This document shows positions 2,401-43,005 of a stretch of 64,000 nt of DNA, piece by piece. A program made the translations under genes and the position numbers. How positions within the stretch are numbered: the first letter of the stretch is position 1; each line of letters opens with the position of its first letter. The stretch spans positions 17,132 to 81,131 of the forward strand of contig ONPU01000008.1 of the NCBI GenBank assembly GCA_900319795.1, read 5' to 3'. This DNA comes from an uncultured Eubacteriales bacterium. GTDB lineage: Bacteria > Bacillota > Clostridia > Lachnospirales > Lachnospiraceae. The notes beneath the pieces were generated by a model. It made no database searches, had not been told where the DNA came from, and worked only from the letters and a program-made list of their open reading frames with translations.

Positions 2401-2432
2401 ATAAAAAGGGATACCCGAACGTGGATATCCCG
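2401..2432 (-). terminator. Intrinsic terminator of the TPP riboswitch
   Basis: Read on the minus strand, a 9-bp stem (GGGATATCC with GGGTATCCC, one G-U pair) closes a 6-nt loop and is followed by TTTTTAT. It lies directly 3' of the TPP aptamer and before thiD, so it is the natural expression platform: TPP binding should favour this hairpin and stop transcription. Confidence 0.88.
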
Positions 2433-2440
2433 CACTTAGT

Positions 2441-2532
2441 TCCTTATTCCCTACGTTGGCATTATCCACATCAGGTTTTGGGTCGAAACGAAACAGTTTC
2501 CTCTCAGCCGGTTTCCGCCAGCTCCCCGTTGA
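2441..2532 (-). promoter_or_regulatory. TPP riboswitch (THI box)
   Basis: The minus strand carries the conserved THI-box order: GCTGGCGGAAACCGGCTGAG (P2 with the CUGAGA element), then ACCC, then ACCTGAT, GGATAATGCCAACG and TAGGGAA. These are the invariant pyrimidine- and pyrophosphate-sensing segments. It sits downstream of the thiE-thiM fusion and upstream of thiD, so it controls thiD-cytX-thiW but not thiE-thiM itself, unless that gene is co-transcribed from a promoter I cannot see. Confidence 0.95.
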
Positions 2533-2574
2533 GCTCCATTGTACGCCCGTCCCGGGCTTTACGCAAGTTGAAAT

Positions 2575-12291: not shown

Positions 12292-13591
12292 ATCCATCCC
12301 TAATGGAGGGAAACAAAAGGGGCGTTTCGCGCCCCTTGATCCGCAGCGGAGAATGACTTCCATCACGAGAAGGCTCCACTGGTACGGGATCCGGCGGAAA
12401 ATAGCCCGCTTCATCGGCACCGACCTCCTCTTCCTCATCCTTCTCCCCGTACTCTGGTGCGCTGAGAAGGAGTACAGCGCGATGAAAAATATCATTTTGC
12501 AAAATGAGCGCGTCATTTACTCCTATCAGCCTACCGCCGGGCACGAGTTTGACCTCATTTACCGCGTAACGGCACCAAACGGGAAAGTGCTCCTCAACGT
12601 TTCCTGCCTGGTCCCGTTTCTGGTGATCCTTTCCATCGTTTCGGTCATGCTGCTTTTCCAGCTGCTGGACATCCTGTTTTCGTATTTCAGGGAAGACCGC
12701 GCCATCCGGAAGATTCTCGGGCCGATCAACGAAATCGCGCTGAAGGCGGACGAGCTGAGCCGGATCAGTTTTACCGAGGACAAATATCAGGTCATCGAAG
12801 ACGCGCTGGAGCACATTCAGCCTGGGCAGTCCGACGGCGCGGTGCCGCTGTCCTTCGGGGATTCCGACTTAAGCGGCGTGGAGGCGGCCATGAACAACCT
12901 GCTGCTTCGCATGCGCGATACGCTCCGGCAGCAGTCCCGCTTCGTCAATGATGCCTCCCACGAGCTCCGTACGCCGATTGCCGTCATCCAGGGCTACGCC
13001 AACATGCTGGACCGCTGGGGCAAGACGGACGAAAAGATTCTCGAGGAGAGCATTTCGGCCATTAAAAACGAGGCCGAGCATATGAATTATCTCGTGGAAC
13101 AGCTGCTCTTCCTCGCAAGGGGCGACAGCGGAAAGATGGTTCTGAAGAAAGAACCGGTCCAGACGGACCTCTTCATGCGGGAAATCTACGAGGAGTCGCT
13201 TATGATCGACGAGCAGCACCTCTACCGGCTCGTCACCGGCGGCCAGTGCGCCGAAGTCACCATCGACCCCGGCCTCATGAAACAGGCGGTCCGCATCCTG
13301 ATCGACAACGCGGCCAAATACACGCCCACAGGCGAAGAAATCCTCCTCTCCTACGGCCTGGACGAAAAAAATCTCCCCTACCTGCAGGTCCAGGATACGG
13401 GAAGCGGCATCGAAGAGAGCGAACTTCCTCACATCTTCGAACGTTTCTACCGCGCGGACGAGGCGCGGGAAAGCGCGGGCACCGGCCTCGGACTCTCGAT
13501 CGCGAAGTGGATCGTCGACAAGCACAACGGCCACTTCGAAGTCCTCTCCCGGAAAGGGCTGGGCACGCGCATTCGAATCGTGCTGACGTGA
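12260..13591 (+). CDS. Sensor histidine kinase (HisKA/HATPase)
   Basis: A protein of up to 443 residues with two membrane segments (around residues 52-70 and 115-140) flanking a short extracellular loop of about 45 residues, then a HAMP-like linker. The kinase core has the H-box ASHELRTPIAV with phospho-acceptor His234, the N-box ILIDNAAKYT, the G1 box VQDTGSGIEESE, the F-box IFERFYR and the G2 box GTGLGLSIAKWIV. The upstream ATG at 12260 follows AGAGGAG and overlaps the regulator gene. A second ATG at 12353 has GCGGAGA, so the first 31 residues are uncertain. The stop codon overlaps a palindromic repeat. Confidence 0.92.
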   Translation: MSSTQAKTKTESIPNGGKQKGRFAPLDPQRRMTSITRRLHWYGIRRKIARFIGTDLLFLILLPVLWCAEKEYSAMKNIILQNERVIYSYQPTAGHEFDLIYRVTAPNGKVLLNVSCLVPFLVILSIVSVMLLFQLLDILFSYFREDRAIRKILGPINEIALKADELSRISFTEDKYQVIEDALEHIQPGQSDGAVPLSFGDSDLSGVEAAMNNLLLRMRDTLRQQSRFVNDASHELRTPIAVIQGYANMLDRWGKTDEKILEESISAIKNEAEHMNYLVEQLLFLARGDSGKMVLKKEPVQTDLFMREIYEESLMIDEQHLYRLVTGGQCAEVTIDPGLMKQAVRILIDNAAKYTPTGEEILLSYGLDEKNLPYLQVQDTGSGIEESELPHIFERFYRADEARESAGTGLGLSIAKWIVDKHNGHFEVLSRKGLGTRIRIVLT

Positions 13592-13690
13592 TAAGACAGT
13601 GGGGACAGTCCCTTGTGTCTTATCGAAAAAGACGCCGAAAATTCGGCGTCTTTTTTCATAAGACACCGGGGACTGTCCCCACTGTCTTAT
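13591..13690. repeat. Two GTGGGGAC-family palindromes around a bidirectional terminator
   Basis: Palindrome 13591-13623 (ATAAGACA ... TGTCTTAT), terminator hairpin 13626-13656, palindrome 13658-13690 (ATAAGACACCGGGGAC ... GTCTTAT). The outer palindromes supply part of the kinase stop codon and the whole stop codon (13687-13689) of the convergent ydcF-like gene. The same family recurs at 37206-37240. Confidence 0.75.
13626..13656. terminator. Bidirectional intrinsic terminator
   Basis: AAAAAGACGCCGAA and TTCGGCGTCTTTTTT form a long stem with A-run and T-run on either side, so it can end transcription of the histidine kinase (plus) and the ydcF-like gene (minus). Confidence 0.88.
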
Positions 13691-15168
13691 CTCACGATCA
13701 GATACAGCATCCACGCGTCCATCAGTACGACGGCCGCAAGGAGCACCAGTTCCTGGCGGATCCGGTTTACGAAGAGTCCGACGCATTCCCGCATGAACGC
13801 GTTCGGCCAGAACCACCACTTGGTGCTGCTGCCGATTCCCTCGGCTTCAAGGCCCGCGAGGCCTGCCCAGACCCCGCTTCGGAAGATGTGGTAGTTGGTC
13901 GTGGAAAATGCCGTCTTCGCGTCCGGCTTTCTCTCCCTAATAATTCTTTTTGAAAATTGCATATTCTGGAAGGTATTGACCGACTTGTCTTCGCAGATAA
14001 TGCGGTCGTCCGGGACCCCGGCCTCGATCAGGTAATTCCTCATCGCGTGGGCCTCCGGCATCGGCTCATCCGAACCCTGTCCGCCCGAAGGAATGAGGAT
14101 CGCGTCCTTGCCGGTCTTTTCGAGCTGTTCGTTCCGGAACTCGATCGCCCGGTCGCAGCGGCCCTTAAGGAGCGGCGTCAGCGTCCCGTCCTTGCGGAAG
14201 CGGCAGCCGAGAATCACGATAAAATCCCTGTCCGGGGAAACGCGGTGCTTCGCGGCGCGGATCCCGCAGATCACGGAAGCCGCGAGCATATATTCGAAAT
14301 AGACGTAAATCGTAATGAAGACGTTGTCAAGCAGAAGGCGCCTTCGGTAGTCATTGAAGGATCCGGAAAAATCCCGCGTCGCGAAGAGTACGCAGAACAC
14401 CTCCCCGCCGATCATAAGGAGCGGAATCAGAAGACCCAGCACATTGGACAGCCTCGGCCGTTCGTGCCGGAGCAGCTCAATATTGCTGATGATCATCGCG
14501 ACCGCGAACAGAAGCATCGGCAGCGTCATATAGAGCATGCAGTTGTTCGGAATGGCCCACAGAGAATCGAGCAGGACCGGAATCCCGTAATAATAGGGGT
14601 CGATCAGATAGCGGACGAATTCAAATAGAACGCTGACTCCGCCCACTCCGAAGAAAATGGCAAGACCTGTCAGGAAAATGGAGACATAGGAGTAGAGCAC
14701 GCTGTCTTTCATTCTGACAAATGTCACGATACACAGAATCGCCACTCCCAGATAGAAAATGCCCGCTGCCAGAATATACATTTCCAGCCCCGTAAAATAC
14801 GAGTGGTTGCAGAAAATGTTCATCCAGCGGTCTACCCGCAGATAACAGTAGGCGCTGTCCTCATCCCCCTCCATCCGGATGGAACATCCTGTACTCCCGG
14901 GAGCGACAGCCCGGAAACGGAGTTCAATGTAGTCCTCGTGAATCCGCGCCTGATCCGCGCTGACGACCCCTTCGGTCTCCATTTCCATAATCAGCTCGTC
15001 CGGAAGGTCCTCAAAAGAGGTGTTCGCGGGAAGGCCCGGATTCGTAATCACCGCCACAACGGTGTTCCCGATCCGGACCCTGTACAGAGCGCAGATAAGG
15101 AGCAGAATGAAAGCCAGCACCGCTATGCCGATCGACATTCTTCTCATTATCTGACTGTATTTCTCCAT
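13687..15168 (-). CDS. YdcF/ElyC-family (DUF218) membrane protein
   Basis: A 493-residue protein. An N-terminal membrane anchor and an extracytoplasmic segment of about 85 residues are followed by a block of about six hydrophobic helices (residues 125-315). The C-terminal DUF218 domain (about 318-470) starts DFIVILGCRFRKDG and contains LIPSGGQGSDEPMPEA, ICEDKSVNTFQN and FSTTNYHIFRSG, the conserved core of YdcF, SanA and ElyC. These proteins are linked to envelope maintenance, and the precise reaction is unknown. It lies 30 bp downstream of carB in the same direction. Confidence 0.85.
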   Translation of the reverse strand: MEKYSQIMRRMSIGIAVLAFILLLICALYRVRIGNTVVAVITNPGLPANTSFEDLPDELIMEMETEGVVSADQARIHEDYIELRFRAVAPGSTGCSIRMEGDEDSAYCYLRVDRWMNIFCNHSYFTGLEMYILAAGIFYLGVAILCIVTFVRMKDSVLYSYVSIFLTGLAIFFGVGGVSVLFEFVRYLIDPYYYGIPVLLDSLWAIPNNCMLYMTLPMLLFAVAMIISNIELLRHERPRLSNVLGLLIPLLMIGGEVFCVLFATRDFSGSFNDYRRRLLLDNVFITIYVYFEYMLAASVICGIRAAKHRVSPDRDFIVILGCRFRKDGTLTPLLKGRCDRAIEFRNEQLEKTGKDAILIPSGGQGSDEPMPEAHAMRNYLIEAGVPDDRIICEDKSVNTFQNMQFSKRIIRERKPDAKTAFSTTNYHIFRSGVWAGLAGLEAEGIGSSTKWWFWPNAFMRECVGLFVNRIRQELVLLAAVVLMDAWMLYLIVR

Positions 15169-18611: not shown

Positions 18612-19211
18612 TCAATGCCGTCCGGGGCGATGAATCACGCGCAATTCCTCCGGCACTGTATACTGCCCGTCGATAAGATCTGCGCCGTATATCGCGCAGT
18701 TGCCGATATATTTCGACCAGTAAGAACCCTCCGACTCCGGTGTCAGATACTCCAGAAGGCCTTTCATCGCAATCGCATGTGTGGAAATCAGGATATTCTT
18801 CCCTTCCGCGCTCTCCCGGATCTCTTCCAGAAACCGGCCCGCTCGAGCCACGACCGAACTTAACTGCTCCATTCCTTCGGGTGCCGGATTATGCTGAAAA
18901 TCCTGGAAAAATGTCATCACCTCCGGCGGCAGGTTCATAAGATCCGTCCCTTCATACGGGCCGTAGTCCATTTCAATCAGCCGCTCGTCGACCACCTGCG
19001 CGACTCCCGGCGCCGCGATCCGGCCGCTTTCGACCGCCCTTATAAGCGGACTCGTATACACGAGGTCCAGGTCGATCTCCTGACTTTTGAACCACTCAAA
19101 GGCCTCCCGGGCTTCCTGCCTCCCGGCGTCATTCAGCGGATCGTCCTTGCGTCCCTGCAGCGCCAATGCCTTATTCTTTGCTGTCTGTCCGTGCCGCATC
19201 ATATAAATCAT
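18612..19211 (-). CDS. Histidine phosphatase family protein (phosphoglycerate mutase-like)
   Basis: A 199-residue protein with the N-terminal phospho-acceptor motif MRHGQT, followed by PLNDAGRQEA and YTSPLIRAVES. The proton donor Glu sits in IEMDYGPYEG and the second catalytic His in ISTHAIAMKG. This is the branch-2 histidine phosphatase pattern, a family that includes CobC-like and broad-specificity phosphatases, so the substrate is open. AAGGAGATAATGAC precedes the ATG. A second family member lies at 24808-25446. The palindrome/structured-RNA element lies directly upstream. Confidence 0.88.
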   Translation of the reverse strand: MIYMMRHGQTAKNKALALQGRKDDPLNDAGRQEAREAFEWFKSQEIDLDLVYTSPLIRAVESGRIAAPGVAQVVDERLIEMDYGPYEGTDLMNLPPEVMTFFQDFQHNPAPEGMEQLSSVVARAGRFLEEIRESAEGKNILISTHAIAMKGLLEYLTPESEGSYWSKYIGNCAIYGADLIDGQYTVPEELRVIHRPGRH

Positions 19212-19228
19212 GTCATTATCTCCTTAAG

Positions 19229-19519
19229 TGCACCACAGGTGCCTGGCACCTGTGGTGCAGTTTTATACTTCAGGTCGAGACTGAATTCTATCATTTCAAA
19301 CTACTTTTGAGGCGCTTTTAGGGATTGGCGAGACAAGCAGCTTAGTAAGACTTGGGAGCGAAGGGGCTCCCCGGTCCGAGGGGAGACCCGAAAGTGAGCT
19401 AGTCGCACTTGGCTGGTGGCTCGACAACCCGTTGCCGGGTAGTTTGAAATGATAGAATTCAGTAAGGCCGGGATCGTGTTATACGAAGTGCACCACAGGT
19501 GCTTGGCACCTGTGGTGCA
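19229..19519 (+). repeat. Composite element A: two 31-nt palindromes flanking a 184-nt structured core
   Basis: The left palindrome (19229-19259) is perfect: TGCACCACAGGTGCC, T, GGCACCTGTGGTGCA. The right palindrome (19489-19519) differs by one C-to-T and ends 2 bp before the stop of the ABC permease gene (19522). Between them are a conserved lead (TATACTTCAGGTCGAG), the 184-nt core and a 25-nt tail. The same arrangement recurs at 38440-38728. The element fills the gap between two minus-strand genes and has no open reading frame of note. Confidence 0.85.
19280..19463 (+). ncRNA. Candidate structured RNA, copy A
   Basis: The core is closed by a perfect 24-bp inverted repeat (19280-19303 with 19440-19463; the arm begins ACTGAATTCTATCATTTC). 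Inside are further hairpins: GGGAGC/GCTCCC, GGTC/GACC, GTCG/CGAC and ACCCG/CGGGT closing TTGC. CTCCCC can alternatively pair with GGGGAG, which would suit a switch or pseudoknot. Copy B is 180/184 identical. The four differences are C/T on the plus strand, favouring plus-strand transcription. The function is unknown; I see weak resemblance to HEARO/omega RNA and cannot test it here. Confidence 0.55.
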
Positions 19520-19521
19520 TT

Positions 19522-20265
19522 TTACAGTTCCAGTTCCTTCTTGCGGAAGACGAGCCACGACACAAGATACGCCAGCCCGAGATACAGGACGGCTCCGGCA
19601 AGAAGACGCAGGAACCCGCCGCCCGTGAGCATCATATCCGCGAAAAATCCGTTCGCGAAGCCCGTGACATAGAGAGAATCCAGGTGGAAATTGTGTATAA
19701 GGGGCTTACTGCCCATCATCTCCAGTGCAAGCGGAATCACAGAAATGAGAAGCAGTTCCGCAAAGACGGACAGTGCCGTATTGTCCGTCGCGTACAGAAG
19801 AATGGCCGCAAGGGGCGTGCAGCAGATCACGATGTATGCTCCCGACACGGTCGCGAGGGCCAGAATCTTCACATCCTCAGGGGACATGTGTGCCCCAAGG
19901 ATCCGTCCCAACAGGACGAAAAATACGAAAAAGACGACAAATACAATGGCCGTAAGAATCGAGCAGACGATGATTTTCGAAAGGATCAGCCGCCGGCGGG
20001 GCATACCCCTGCCGATCGCGGCCTGCAGCGATTTCGACTGGAATTCGTCGGCGTAAATTCCCAGAAAGGACGCGATCCCGATAATCACCGGAATCGTGGT
20101 CGTAAGAGCATTGATCCGGTTCACCGCGTATACGAACCCGTTCCAGAACTTCAGCCGGTCCGGAATCACAAGCGCCAGAACCAGAGCCGCGGTCACGGCC
20201 AGCACAATCTGAAAACTTCTCTTGTTCAGGATCCTTAAAAGATCCGCTTTTATCAAACTGATCAT
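19522..20265 (-). CDS. ABC-2 type permease subunit (LanE/G- or BcrB-like), second
   Basis: A 247-residue protein with six predicted membrane helices, starting MISLIKADLLRILNKRSF. The pattern of a positively charged amphipathic start and the loop GRGMPRRRLILSKII is shared with its partner and with lantibiotic-immunity permeases. It is last in a three-gene operon; its ATG overlaps the stop of the first permease gene by 4 bp. The 31-nt palindrome begins 2 bp past its stop. Together the genes encode a small ATP-driven exporter; the cargo is not evident. Confidence 0.85.
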   Translation of the reverse strand: MISLIKADLLRILNKRSFQIVLAVTAALVLALVIPDRLKFWNGFVYAVNRINALTTTIPVIIGIASFLGIYADEFQSKSLQAAIGRGMPRRRLILSKIIVCSILTAIVFVVFFVFFVLLGRILGAHMSPEDVKILALATVSGAYIVICCTPLAAILLYATDNTALSVFAELLLISVIPLALEMMGSKPLIHNFHLDSLYVTGFANGFFADMMLTGGGFLRLLAGAVLYLGLAYLVSWLVFRKKELEL

Positions 20266-37210: not shown

Positions 37211-37240
37211 GACAGTGGGGACTGTCCCCACTGTCTTATT
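37206..37240. terminator. Perfect palindrome acting as a shared terminator between convergent genes
   Basis: AATAAGACAGTGGGGAC, a central T, then GTCCCCACTGTCTTATT: 17-bp arms. It supplies the TAA of the esterase gene and one base of the stop of the converging aldo/keto reductase gene. The same repeat type flanks the terminator at 13591-13690. Confidence 0.7.
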
Positions 37241-38415
37241 TACCGTTTCATGACCTTTCGGGCGACGGCAATGCCGATTTTATAGGGAAGCGGGCGCAGA
37301 GCGCGGTCCGCTTCCTTTAATTTTGCGCGGATCGGAAGGTGCTGCGGGCAGTGCTTTTCGCATTTGCCGCAGCCGACGCACAGAGAGGCCACGCCGGCGT
37401 TCTTCTGGAGCGCGAGGTTGCGCGCGTATTCGAAGCGTGCCGATGCTTTGTCCTGGAAATACATGAGGTTGTAATAGTGGAAATTGCCCGGGATGTCCAC
37501 GCCCTTTGGACATGGCATGCAGTAGCGGCAGCCGGTGCAGCCGACTTTTTCCTTCGATTTGATGATTCCCCGGACGCGCTCGATGAGCGCGTTTTCCTCT
37601 TCGGAAAATGAACCGGGTTCTGCCGCAGAGGCAATCCGGATATTTTCCTCCACCATTTCAAGCGAATTCATTCCCGAAAGGACCACCGTCACCTCCGGCT
37701 GGTTCCACAGCCAGCGAAGGCCCAGTTCCGCGGCGGACATGCCATTTCCCGAAGCGGAAATCGCCTTCTGCGCCTCAGCCGGAAGATTGACCAGCTTGCC
37801 GCCCCGAAGCGGTTCCATGATGATGACCGGAATGCCCTTTGCCGCCGCTGCCTGAAGGCCTTTGCGGCCGGCCTGACTGTGTTCGTCCATATAGTTGTAC
37901 TGAATCTGGCAGAAGTCCCAGTCATAGGCATCGAGAATCTTCAGGAACATCTCGCTGTCCCCGTGATAGGAGAAGCCGATCTGCCGGATGCTCCCGTCTT
38001 CCTTTTTCGAACGGATCCACTCCTCGATCCCGTAGCTCTTAAGGCTCTCCCACTCGGAATAGTCCGTAAACATGTGCATGAGATAATAGTCGATATGATC
38101 CGTACGGAGCCTCTTAAGTTCCTCCTGGAACGTCTTCTCCACCGCCTTCAGCGAACGCAGCACATACTGCGGGAGTTTCGTGGCAATATACACCTTGTCA
38201 CGGACATGGTTCTCTTCCAGAATCCGTCCGAGCAGCTCCTCGCTCCCCGAGTAGATATAGGCAGTATCGAGATAATTCACACCGAGTTCGATCGCGCGCA
38301 TCACTTCCTGCTCGGCCTTCTTATAGTCGATGCCGGAGCCCTTCTTCGTAAAGCGCATGCAGCCGAATCCCAGCTGCGACAGCTCGTTCCCGTAACGGTC
38401 TTTTCTGTACTTCAT
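37240..38415 (-). CDS. Aldo/keto reductase with C-terminal ferredoxin-type domain
   Basis: A 391-residue protein from the ATG at 38415 (GAGGA upstream); the extension to 38460 only reads through the palindrome. The AKR TIM barrel (1-about 280) has the catalytic tetrad Asp/Tyr in NYLDTAYIYSG, Lys in YIATKLP and His in YLMHMF. The C-terminal 90 residues bind two [4Fe-4S] clusters (CTGCRYCMPCPKG and CVGCGKCEKHCPQ). This architecture is common in anaerobes; its electron partner and substrate are unknown. Confidence 0.88.
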   Translation of the reverse strand: MKYRKDRYGNELSQLGFGCMRFTKKGSGIDYKKAEQEVMRAIELGVNYLDTAYIYSGSEELLGRILEENHVRDKVYIATKLPQYVLRSLKAVEKTFQEELKRLRTDHIDYYLMHMFTDYSEWESLKSYGIEEWIRSKKEDGSIRQIGFSYHGDSEMFLKILDAYDWDFCQIQYNYMDEHSQAGRKGLQAAAAKGIPVIIMEPLRGGKLVNLPAEAQKAISASGNGMSAAELGLRWLWNQPEVTVVLSGMNSLEMVEENIRIASAAEPGSFSEEENALIERVRGIIKSKEKVGCTGCRYCMPCPKGVDIPGNFHYYNLMYFQDKASARFEYARNLALQKNAGVASLCVGCGKCEKHCPQHLPIRAKLKEADRALRPLPYKIGIAVARKVMKR

Positions 38416-38439
38416 TCCTCTATCTCCATTTGCCGGCAC

Positions 38440-38728
38440 TGCACCAAAGGTGCCTGGCACCTGTGGTGCGTTTATACTTCAGGTCGAGACTGAATTCTAT
38501 TATTTCAAACTACTTTTGAGGCGTTTTTAGGGATTGGCGAGACAAGCAGCTTAGTAAGACTTGGGAGCGAAGGGGCTCCCCGGTCCGAGGGGAGACCCGA
38601 AAGCGAGTTAGTCGCACTTGGCTGGTGGCTCGACAACCCGTTGCCGGGTAGTTTGAAATGATAGAATTCAGTTCGGCCGGGACAGTGTCACATGAACTGC
38701 ACCAAAGGTGCCTGGCACCTGTGGTGCA
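38440..38728 (+). repeat. Composite element B: two 31-nt palindromes flanking the 184-nt core
   Basis: The palindromes at 38440-38470 and 38698-38728 (TGCACCAAAGGTGCC, T, GGCACCTGTGGTGCG or ...GCA) are in direct orientation. They enclose the same lead sequence, the 184-nt core and a diverged tail, as in element A. The right palindrome ends 1 bp before the stop of the TIM/AMP-ligase fusion gene (38730). The spacer is 227 bp, against 229 bp in element A. Confidence 0.85.
38489..38672 (+). ncRNA. Candidate structured RNA, copy B
   Basis: Same length and fold as copy A. The four differences are C-to-T in the closing stem (opposite G, so G-U is kept), C-to-T in GCG(C/T)TTT, T-to-C in AAAG(T/C)GAG and C-to-T in GAG(C/T)TAG. 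No Shine-Dalgarno-led frame runs through it. The strand is assigned from the substitution pattern only. Confidence 0.55.
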
Positions 38729-38729
38729 C

Positions 38730-41228
38730 TTACGCGGTTTCCACGCTCGCGGCCTTCTGAAGGCCGAGCTTCTCCACCGCCATCTCTCTCATCTTGTACT
38801 TCTGGATCTTCCCGGCGTCGTTCATCGGGAAGCTGTCGACGAAGTCGATGTACTTCGGCACCTTGTGCTTGGCCATGTGGTCGAGCACGTAGGTCTTCAT
38901 CTCTTCGACGGTCATCTCCTCACCTTCCTTTAAGATGATGCAGGCCATGATCTCTTCGCCCATCGCCTCGTCCGGCACACCGATGACCTGGACGTCGCTT
39001 ACCTTCGGGTGCGTGTAGATGAATTCCTCGATTTCTTTCGGGTAAATGTTTTCGCCGCCGCGGATAATCATATCCTTCAGACGGCCGGTAATGCGGTAAT
39101 TTCCTTCCGCGGTGCGGCAGGCCAGGTCGCCGGTGTGCAGCCAGCCGTCCTTGTCGATCGCCGCCGCTGTCGCTTTCGGCATCTTATAATAGCCCTTCAT
39201 GATATTGTAGCCGCGGGCCACGAATTCACCGATCACTTCGTCCGGGCAGTCCTCGCCGGTTTCCGGATCCACGATCTTGCACTCGACCTCCGGGAACGCG
39301 CTTCCGACTGTCGTCACGCGAACCTCCAGGGAATCCGTGGTACGGGACATTGTACAGCCCGGCGCGGCCTCGGTCTGGCCGTAAACAATGACGATCTCCG
39401 GCATATGCATTTTCTCGACGACGTCGCGCATGACCGCGATCGGGCAGGGGCTTCCCGCCATGATGCCGGTCCGCATATGGCTGAAATCCGTCTTCGGGAA
39501 GTCCGGGTGTTCCAGCATCGCGATGAACATCGTCGGAACGCCGTGGAATGCCGTAATCCGTTCGTTGTGAATGCACGACAGCGAGGATTTCGGTGAAAAA
39601 TACGGTATCGGCAGAATTGTGCCGCCGTGTGTCATCGTCGCGGTCATCGCCAGCACCATGCCGAAGCAGTGGAACATCGGAACCTGGATCATCATGCGGT
39701 CTTCCGTCGACAGGTCCATGCCGTCGCCGATGCTCTTGCCGTCATTGACGATATTGTAGTGCGTCAGCATTACGCCCTTCGGGAATCCTGTCGTACCGGA
39801 AGTGTACTGCATGTTGCAGACATCGTTGACATCGACTGCCGCCGCCATGCGCCGCACTTCCTCAATCGGCGTGCGGGACGCGTAGGTCAGGGACTCTTCC
39901 CATGTAATCGCGCCCGGCATGCGGAATCCGACCGTAATGACGTTCCGAAGGAACGGAAGCCGCTTCGAGTGAAGCGCTTCTCCCGGTTTTTTCTCCGCAA
40001 GCTCCGGACACAGCTCGCTGATGATCTTCTTATAGTTCGAGTCGCGGTAGCCTTCAATCATCACCAGCGTATGCGTATCCGACTGCCTGAGCAGATACTC
40101 CGCCTCGTGGATCTTGTAAGCCGTGTTCATCGTCACGAGAACCGCGCCGATCTTCGTGGTGGCCCAGAACGTCAGGAACCACTGCGGCACGTTGGTCGCC
40201 CAGATCGTGACCTTCGAGCCCTGCTTCACTCCGAGTGAAACAAGCGCGCGGGCGTATTCGTCCACATCCTCGCGGAACTGGCTGTAAGTGCGTTCATAGT
40301 CCAGCGTCGTGTACTTGATCGCGGTCTGGTCGGGGAAGGTCTCCGCCATCGTATCCAGTACCTGTGAAAATGTCTTGTCAATCAGGTCTCCCTTTTTCCA
40401 GACATAGCGGCCTTTGTGCCGGTTGCTCCAGAAGAGGTGCTTCTGACCGCGTTTTGTATTTTCATAGCGTTTCATCGCATTTGCAAAATGCGTGAAAATG
40501 ATCTCCATATCCGCGATCTCCGGCATCCACTCCGGGTTCCAGCGGATCGAGACAAATCCGTCGTAGTTGACGGAACGCAGGGCGTCCATGAGCTCCTGCA
40601 TCGGGATTTCCCCGTCTCCGATCAGTTCCGGGGCGAATTCGTCGCCCTCTTTCCGGAAGTCATGGATATGCACGTGCTGCACGTAGGCGCCGAGGTTCGT
40701 GATCGTCTCCTCCGCGCTCTCCCCGCCTTCGGATGTCGTCGTATGCATGTTCCAAAGCGCCGCGAGCCGGTCGTCGGCGAAGCGGTTGAGAAGATCCCTG
40801 AGGCTCACTGTGTTCGCGAACGCTCCGGACGTCTCCACAAGAACCGTCACCGGCCGCTCTCCCAGGACCTTGATGATCTTTTCTATGGCAAATGCGCACT
40901 TATCGGCATCGGTCTCGTCTGTATGGATCGCGATATACGGAATTCCGAGGTTGACGGCCGCGGCAAGGACGCTTTCCATTTCCTCGAAAAATGCACTGTC
41001 GGTAAAGTCCGTCACCGTCCCCGCGCACGGAATCGAAAGACCCCTCGCGATCAGTTCGCGGCGCGTCACCGCTGAAAGCTCCGGATTCGTCGGGCTTGTT
41101 TTGCCCCGGAAAACCGGTCCCCGGACATCGTAGATCTCAATGCCGGCCATACGTGTATTCTGAGCTGCGTCCAGGAATTCCTGCCAGCTGATATTGTCCC
41201 AGTTACGTATTGAAAATGAGAGTTTCAA
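38730..41228 (-). CDS. Fusion: sugar-phosphate isomerase/epimerase-type TIM barrel + AMP-forming acyl-CoA synthetase
   Basis: An 832-residue protein. Residues 1-about 255 form an AP-endonuclease-2/IolE-like TIM barrel (IEIYDVRGP, IAIHTDET, LVETSGAFANT, HVHIHDF). Residues about 280-825 form a complete acyl-CoA/AMP ligase: P-loop YTSGTTGFPKGVM, YGQTEAAPGC, the hinge GRLKDMIIRGGENIYPKEIEE and the catalytic Lys in DAGKIQKYKMRE. The start is a TTG at 41228 with GGAGGG upstream. It follows the LeuA-like gene after 26 bp, so it lies in the same T-box-controlled operon. It probably activates a carboxylic acid as a CoA thioester; the substrate and the barrel's role are unknown. Confidence 0.88.
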   Translation of the reverse strand: MKLSFSIRNWDNISWQEFLDAAQNTRMAGIEIYDVRGPVFRGKTSPTNPELSAVTRRELIARGLSIPCAGTVTDFTDSAFFEEMESVLAAAVNLGIPYIAIHTDETDADKCAFAIEKIIKVLGERPVTVLVETSGAFANTVSLRDLLNRFADDRLAALWNMHTTTSEGGESAEETITNLGAYVQHVHIHDFRKEGDEFAPELIGDGEIPMQELMDALRSVNYDGFVSIRWNPEWMPEIADMEIIFTHFANAMKRYENTKRGQKHLFWSNRHKGRYVWKKGDLIDKTFSQVLDTMAETFPDQTAIKYTTLDYERTYSQFREDVDEYARALVSLGVKQGSKVTIWATNVPQWFLTFWATTKIGAVLVTMNTAYKIHEAEYLLRQSDTHTLVMIEGYRDSNYKKIISELCPELAEKKPGEALHSKRLPFLRNVITVGFRMPGAITWEESLTYASRTPIEEVRRMAAAVDVNDVCNMQYTSGTTGFPKGVMLTHYNIVNDGKSIGDGMDLSTEDRMMIQVPMFHCFGMVLAMTATMTHGGTILPIPYFSPKSSLSCIHNERITAFHGVPTMFIAMLEHPDFPKTDFSHMRTGIMAGSPCPIAVMRDVVEKMHMPEIVIVYGQTEAAPGCTMSRTTDSLEVRVTTVGSAFPEVECKIVDPETGEDCPDEVIGEFVARGYNIMKGYYKMPKATAAAIDKDGWLHTGDLACRTAEGNYRITGRLKDMIIRGGENIYPKEIEEFIYTHPKVSDVQVIGVPDEAMGEEIMACIILKEGEEMTVEEMKTYVLDHMAKHKVPKYIDFVDSFPMNDAGKIQKYKMREMAVEKLGLQKAASVETA

Positions 41229-42721: not shown

Positions 42722-43005
42722 ACAAAAAAGCCCGGAGGCTCATGGAACTGAACCTCCGGGACGACTATACTTCCATAATCGCGGTACCACCCGGATTGCT
42801 GCTTCAAAAACAGCCTCTCTGCGACACTCCATCAAGTGTCCGGCCAAGGTAACGGGGCCAGCCGGATCTCCCTACGCAGCCCGGAGGCGTTCAGGAAATC
42901 TGCTCGGGCAGGAGACTGCGCTTCTGCCCCAATACCGGCTCACACCAGCCGCCGGCTCTCTGAAATATGGAAACAGAGCACATAGTGCCGTCATCGCATT
43001 TAACG
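42722..43005 (-). promoter_or_regulatory. T-box leader
   Basis: On the minus strand: stem I with the AGAGAG and GGTGTGAGCC elements (about 42970-42930), the CCCGTTA linker typical of T-boxes, the T-box core GGGTGGTACCGCG (42780-42792) and a terminator. The specifier loop seems to lie in GATTTCCTGAACGCC. CTG (Leu) followed by A is my preferred reading, with TTC (Phe) an alternative; I cannot fix it without a fold. It governs the LeuA-like/TIM-AMP-ligase operon. Confidence 0.93.
42723..42761 (-). terminator. T-box terminator hairpin
   Basis: CCCGGAGGTTCA pairs with TGAGCCTCCGGG (one G-U type pair) around GTTCCA and is followed by CTTTTTTG. It competes with the antiterminator that contains the T-box sequence. 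Confidence 0.9.

Follow-up and report, generated by a model that had tools for sequence, protein, structure and literature searches.

What kind of element is the 184-nt sequence that stands twice between genes in the window, i.e., the whole 64,000-nt stretch of Lachnospiraceae DNA analyzed here? The first-pass annotation took it for a candidate mobile or guide-like RNA. Read directly and recounted, the two copies occupy positions 19280-19463 and 38489-38672 and are identical at 180 of 184 positions, as had been reported. The 24-bp inverted repeat described as closing the unit is perfect in copy 1; in copy 2, 23 of the 24 positions are exactly complementary and the remaining one is a T-G pair. 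As to the location just past a stop codon, the stop codons at 19522 and 38730 directly follow the right-hand palindromes. The open reading frames of at least 100 amino acids that run over the cores (18891-19310 and 37879-38493) are mostly antisense to the real neighboring genes. The features are listed below, where R1 denotes a covariance model built from 14 sequences.

18612-19211, minus strand: neighboring gene, histidine phosphatase superfamily (ORF list, Pfam)
19229-19259, no strand: REP-like 31-nt palindrome to the left of copy 1, one of the nine exact-pattern sites
19280-19303, plus strand: 5' arm of the closing stem (P1) of copy 1, perfect 24-bp complement of 19440-19463 (fold)
19304-19439, plus strand: conserved core of copy 1, a rod with internal loops and strands GCGCTTTTAGGG.. 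and ..CCCGTTGC (R1 match, covariation)
19363-19389, plus strand: terminal hairpin of copy 1, GGGGCTCCCCGGTCCGAGGGGAGACCC, of a type that varies across the family
19440-19463, plus strand: 3' arm of P1 of copy 1 (complementarity, fold)
19489-19519, no strand: REP-like palindrome to the right of copy 1, one base off the exact pattern
19522-20265, minus strand: neighboring gene with an ABC-2 permease match, stop codon just past the right palindrome of copy 1
37240-38460, minus strand: neighboring gene, 4Fe-4S aldo/keto reductase; the start of its ORF, as listed, falls in the left palindrome of copy 2
38440-38470, no strand: REP-like palindrome to the left of copy 2, exact-pattern site
38489-38512, plus strand: 5' arm of P1 of copy 2, with one T-G pair (complementarity, fold)
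38513-38648, plus strand: conserved core of copy 2 (R1 match 38515-38650, 159.8 bits)
38649-38672, plus strand: 3' arm of P1 of copy 2 (complementarity, fold)
38698-38728, no strand: REP-like palindrome to the right of copy 2, exact-pattern site
38730-41228, minus strand: neighboring gene, AMP-binding enzyme that also matches a TIM barrel, stop codon just past the right palindrome of copy 2

The N-terminal part of the last of these ORFs matches an AP-endonuclease-2 type TIM barrel, which may reflect a gene fusion or a start-site artefact.

When 180 nt of each copy were folded as RNA, copy 1 gave a z-score of -6.95 and copy 2 one of -8.12, and in neither case was any of 200 shuffled sequences equally stable. 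The predicted structure is not a series of at least four internal hairpins, as had been thought, but a single long rod interrupted by internal loops. R1 matches copy 1 at 19306-19441 (157.6 bits). Throughout the family, the long closing stem P1 leads into a conserved core of internal loops, which is capped by an end hairpin of variable type. The conserved loops comprise GCGNUUUUAG opposite CGUUG, GAGAUCC opposite UUAGCUC, and UUACG.AGACU opposite AGUCG.AGUUA.

Sequence changes within the family follow this fold. In a plain MAFFT alignment, compensatory changes were found at 19 of the 34 predicted pairs. Among 19 sequences aligned to a model, two-sided changes affected 25 of the 34 pairs, 95.2% of the cells were paired, and 122 two-sided cells were counted versus a mean of 35.1 in shuffled alignments, none of 500 of which reached as high; slid versions of this alignment had less than 50% of their cells paired. 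In a plain MAFFT alignment across genera, 18 of 24 pairs covaried, with 65 two-sided cells versus 18.0 after shuffling (0 of 500), and further pair types showed no excess over the shuffles (125 of 500). Two of the alignments (A1 and A5) were made with plain MAFFT, and the pair counts of the other three (A2, A6, and A7) lean towards structure because these were aligned to models. The covariation, which exceeds that of shuffled and slid controls, strongly supports pairing of the core. At paired positions, read in the plus sense, G-U outnumbered A-C in the arms (36:15), A6 (28:12), A7 (35:18), and A2 (14:2). The excess favors the plus strand as the strand that would act as folded RNA, but the cells are not independent, and G-U is favored by folding and model methods themselves.

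The closing stem behaves differently from the core in one respect: between paralogs the P1 sequences are unlike, some being plainly related and others not, but nearly always complementary. In 45 copies from two relatives, G513 and G752, P1 measured 19-37 bp (mean, 28.6), the 19-bp minimum being an artefact of an end search that halted at an early CGTC (L220 7897). These 45 were drawn from 51 matches, after removal of the low-scoring L225 3727 and L190 4205, of L184 13925, L192 4992, and L193 5094 with an odd 5' side, and, for no stated reason, of L225 3118, a regular copy. Thirteen copies have arms of 32 bp; in these, 97.8% of the cells were paired versus 65% after shuffling, two-sided changes occurred in 25 of the 32 columns, and 131 two-sided cells compared with a shuffled mean of 37. 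Between orthologous copies, the arms may be almost unchanged (L182/L220, L210/L221, and L216/L226) or altered with compensation (L215/L218). Three pairs (L182/L220, L183/L189, and L184/L187) combine retained arms with a different type of inner helix and end hairpin, as expected if gene conversion operates between copies. L052 and L053 have flanks that, by eye, are common to both but wholly unlike, still complementary arms. Short ends, CAG..CGTCC, recur in G513 and G752; among the sequences examined for other purposes, no autonomous relative turned up.

An origin of the arms in adjacent genes was rejected, as a search of 294 kb gave no convincing match of an arm to a neighboring gene. Eight matches at E<=0.05 lay outside the listed elements. 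Six of these span 13-15 nt, a seventh (21 nt) lies close to the element of that arm, and the eighth (33 nt), at the edge of L230, probably belongs to an orthologous element missing from the list. Within these 294 kb, the arms lend no support to the idea of a stand-alone guide-like RNA.

How widespread is the element? With R1, seven copies were found in its own genome: the two in the window, one each on contigs C16 (L003), C5 (L004), and C15 (L005), and a tandem pair of diverged copies on C4. Beside this pair (L095, 8185-8361) stands a different repeated hairpin element of 177 nt, with a second copy ~330 nt further on, in which CGTTG and GCGTTTTTAGG occur in reversed order, resembling a circularly permuted core. 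Rotated, it scored 45.5 against the family and unrotated 38.5, compared with a mean of 31.6 and a maximum of 45.0 for 300 shuffles; the comparison is only suggestive of a circularly permuted relative. Such a relative, if genuine, would hint that the core works as a two-stranded module independent of connectivity, a milder form of the improbable address reading considered below.

Beyond the own genome, which is included in all counts that follow, BLAST with the core found the element in 3 of 61 genomes; of the 42 genomes sampled from the genus, R1 matched five. Model R2 picked up five genomes among 392 of the order, all of them within the family of the window. R3, a covariance model from 18 sequences of four genera that leaves out three G012 copies misaligned by MAFFT, near-duplicates, and weak or variant copies, matched 32 of the 397 family genomes at E<=0.01, in 30 of 334 genera, and 30 of the 32 also at E<=0.001; among 391 genomes of the class it matched three, all of the same family. 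Thus, the suggested search of related genomes did yield copies elsewhere, and outside the family none was found among the sampled genomes of the order (392) and class (391). Since searches of more than 40 genomes used strict filters and scored few candidates, the figure of 32 in 397 should be taken as a minimum. When 34 genomes of the genus were searched more permissively (E<=0.1), six had the element, G005 being the only addition. Relaxed filters also revealed 41 copies in G513 and 49 in a second genome from the same genus; together with the R1 search of the genus, this gave 242 matches in 23 genomes. An exact pattern scan of named genomes retrieved eight stretches: five from RUG11216 and two from RUG11217, metagenome-assembled genomes titled uncultured Lachnospiraceae, and one from Halorubrum, which is probably a chance match (R1, 18.8 bits, E 0.0026).

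Variants were also encountered. In G339, the copies at L104, L099, and L106, which lie near normal ones, have the 3' strand of the core interrupted by ~80 extra nt that form a separate hairpin. In several genera, elements form divergent inverted pairs, in which the model matches are ~100 nt apart (L155, L156, and L166) or more widely spaced (L158 and L161).

Carriage by phages or plasmids was considered and rejected. An element from G513 matched nothing in 50,697 phage records, and neither it nor the window core matched anything in 72,556 plasmid records. Three exact patterns gave no match in viral contigs; an earlier pattern had retrieved seven viral stretches, of which the three scored with R1 were all weak (best E, 0.033).

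Copies favor the 3' ends of genes. The context was tabulated for 44 of 45 copies in one set and for 57 of 62 in a second, the latter 62 remaining from 67 matches after three weak L180 matches, one mirror-strand match, and the second copy of the C4 tandem pair had been dropped. Gene pairs around the copies were convergent in 16 of 44 and 24 of 57 cases and divergent in 3 of 44 and 7 of 57. The gene on the right ran towards the element in 31 of 44 and 36 of 57 cases; of these 31 and 36 genes, 19 each had their stop codon no more than ~30 nt away (distances with a fixed 35-nt margin). Tandem contexts occurred in both orientations (15 and 10 of 44; 12 and 14 of 57), so there is no single reading strand. 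A simple consensus scan found no promoter-like site in 18900-19900. No neighboring family recurred: of 104 neighboring proteins, two very long ones were dropped, and among the other 102 the most frequent Pfam family was found in only three, while none of the families related to defence was seen more than once. In line with the statement that no iscB is present, none of the 43 window proteins, eight of which lack a Pfam match at cut-off, matches a transposase, IscB/TnpB, or reverse-transcriptase family.

The first-pass annotation proposed a non-autonomous element moved in trans, and the findings are compatible with this. The copies are dispersed, multiple, non-coding, and bounded by inverted-repeat arms, as in MITE- and ERIC-like elements, and past mobility of the family is likely. 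Movement itself was not seen. In the species pair G513/G752, 14 of 19 examined G513 copies are syntenic in G752 (for L209, judged from a single flank), the orthologous gene pair lacks L213, and four were left unassigned. At the L213 site of G752, no target-site duplication or clean footprint was discerned, the intergenic flanks being too diverged, and no empty site was found for copy 1 of the window, as the ABC gene was not found beside the phosphatase homologue in the compared loci of five relatives. Synteny of this kind is compatible with either a resident or a mobile element. A link to the Y1 transposase (PF01797) was rejected: it was present in 16 of 23 carriers and 15 of 23 other genomes tried, one of the latter (G082) being a weak carrier itself, no neighboring family recurred, and G723, G478, and G525 have 10, 8, and 10 copies of the element without any Y1 transposase. 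None of these comparisons pointed to a mobilizing protein.

In Rfam, no family, HEARO (RF02033) included, matched the element at the gathering cut-off, so that the proposed Rfam search points to no known class; the matches with low E-values were solely to microRNA hairpin models, below their cut-offs, and other Rfam classes were rejected for the element on the same grounds. Within the window, Rfam recognized only a T-box leader (42754-43003, minus strand) and a TPP riboswitch (2431-2538, minus strand). In loci of relatives that also contain the element, a Clostridiales-1 RNA (RF01699) was found at L164 8878-9057 (minus strand) above cut-off and at L210 4425-4509 (minus strand) below it.

Searches of the open-licence literature turned up nothing that describes an element like this one from Lachnospiraceae. 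The nearest likeness is MRSC-65-2, a "mobile/repeat sequence candidate," which in the available excerpt of its description also has a single long stem, strong covariation, and dozens of copies per genome, and is considered possibly relevant as DNA (PMC11109978). However, that motif has a conserved UYCCGG repeat, occurs in diverse phyla, and in some instances lies near a transposase (PMC11109978), whereas the present element differs in its core and was detected in a single family. The present family is apparently undescribed; the same excerpt counts 250 mobile/repeat candidates, and, compared by description only, the family could be one of these. The available parts of three related surveys (PMC2864571, PMC8632094, and PMC6429828) contained nothing closer than the MRSC class. 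The ERIC/IRU/RU-1 and NEMIS/Correia repeats are likewise dispersed, ~100-170 bp long, and form long stem-loops; in the excerpt available, ERIC is said to affect mRNA stability and NEMIS to be cleaved by RNase III, and for both, terminal inverted repeats as well as target-site duplications are given (PMC2229807). In contrast, the arms of the present element are unlike between paralogs, and no duplication was seen. The bcr1-bcr18 repeats of the Bacillus cereus group are intergenic repeats of Firmicutes as well, some of them MITE-like, and, according to the accessible part of the source, some have a conserved secondary structure and about half are transcribed (PMC3446304); they belong to other hosts and are likened here by description, not by sequence. 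Finally, most G513 and G752 copies end in CGTC at the foot of the stem, which recalls the GTAG/CGTC-tagged REPs, as do dimers of opposite orientation. As presented in the excerpt available, CGTC repeats seemingly have no dedicated transposase, and GTAG/CGTC REPs differ in being 20-40 bp palindromes whose families have common stems; the five phyla named there for CGTC repeats exclude Firmicutes (PMC3733652). In a broad sense, the ERIC, NEMIS, and bcr repeats are of the same kind as the present family.

The palindromes at the window copies raise a rival reading, in which they are the mobile part of a REP/BIME unit and the core is a passive spacer. They do bracket both window copies, as had been noted, and three of the four fit an exact pattern that has nine sites in the window versus none expected. 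They are not specific to the element, however, as most of the 100 matches listed for the own genome consist of the palindrome alone. On both sides they accompany four of the five close core copies of that genome, which also encodes a RAYT-like ORF, and both facts speak for the spacer reading. Against it, L005 and the C4 tandem pair lack 31-nt palindromes, as do the cores in those relatives whose flanks were inspected, and the palindrome beside the RAYT-like ORF is of another type, GGGACTGTCCC. This ORF with its different palindromes indicates that REP-type repeats are at home in the genome; the window itself contains, at 13590-13691, a near-perfect 50-nt inverted repeat with GGGGACAGTCCC, the type that adjoins the ORF. 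Moreover, REP/BIME palindromes measure 20-40 nt and have a family-wide stem, which describes the flanking palindromes only; the model-matched core spans ~115-200 nt. The 31-nt palindromes are thus a separate, genome-wide REP-like repeat and, for the family overall, not part of the element. In the own genome, they were probably carried along when the unit was duplicated, and a REP/BIME mechanism could still account for the spread of the four palindrome-flanked copies there. For the family, the spacer reading is largely refuted by the palindrome-free cores and is highly improbable. Even less credible, and barely worth entertaining, is an omega-RNA of HEARO/IscB or TnpB type acting in trans. HEARO is a structured RNA tied to mobile elements, and the first-pass annotation saw a resemblance in the order of short motifs, which is all that recalls it. 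This resemblance finds no support: HEARO gave no match at E<=10 in 19150-19600 or at E<=1 in 16 and 8 loci of relatives, the fold is an unbranched rod, no HNH/RuvC gene stands beside the window copies, none of the window proteins is of an IscB, TnpB, or transposase family, and no such family occurs in at least two of the 102 neighboring proteins of relatives.

More serious, if still doubtful, is the possibility that the copies serve the host as a multi-copy RNA or 3'-UTR module, acting in mRNA decay, in termination, or as a stand-alone regulator, and descending from an old, domesticated repeat. The persistence of 14 of 19 copies in synteny, the facing right-hand genes with their nearby stop codons, the conservation of unpaired core residues, and the plus-sense G-U excess all agree with such a role. 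On the other hand, presence in 32 of 397 genomes is patchy for a host function, the neighbors have no common function, the tandem contexts offer no single reading strand, and no promoter-like site was seen at copy 1. Perfect arms could also be kept at the DNA level, by template-switch correction or by selection on a cruciform, with no RNA role at all. Among the 13 copies with 32-bp arms, pairwise comparisons, which are not independent, gave 1052 two-sided differences versus 51 one-sided G-U differences, so wobble intermediates are rare, as this explanation would have it. However, correction would be expected to erase the asymmetric internal loops that the core conserves, and G-U is about twice as frequent as A-C, though folding and model methods favor G-U; we consider a purely DNA-level palindrome unlikely. 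The arms allow one further thought, i.e., that the variation in P1 is an address, each rod joining an individual duplex to a shared protein-binding core in the manner of a guide or small-RNA precursor. We regard this as quite improbable; were it true, the near-perfect duplexes of 20-30 bp would be copy-specific rather than a neutral clamp, in dozens of rods per genome.

The view of a structured, repeated, non-coding element has thus gained support from the copies in relatives, the strong covariation, and the lack of an Rfam match. As far as comparison of sequences can tell, the element is a rod whose pairing is kept despite sequence change and whose arms are specific to each paralog. On balance, we lean towards a new family of non-autonomous dispersed elements akin to ERIC, bcr, and MRSC repeats, which are probably bound in trans as folded RNA or as a single DNA strand. 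The copies would have spread in the past through an enzyme, encoded elsewhere, that recognized the folded core, either as RNA or as extruded single-stranded DNA, with the arms serving as a sequence-independent clamp. Copies may then swap inner cassettes by recombination, and most would persist by vertical inheritance in intergenic DNA at the 3' ends of genes.

If this reading of a dispersed element recognized through its folded core is right, the Lachnospiraceae harbor a sizeable class of structured repeats for which Rfam has no model, with up to ~50 copies per genome and in ~8% of the family genomes sampled. It would also provide a clean case of repeat arms that change in sequence yet stay almost perfectly complementary. 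Annotators might otherwise take the copies for terminators, attenuators, or omega-RNAs, and a protein that recognizes the conserved core would be a concrete target to search for.
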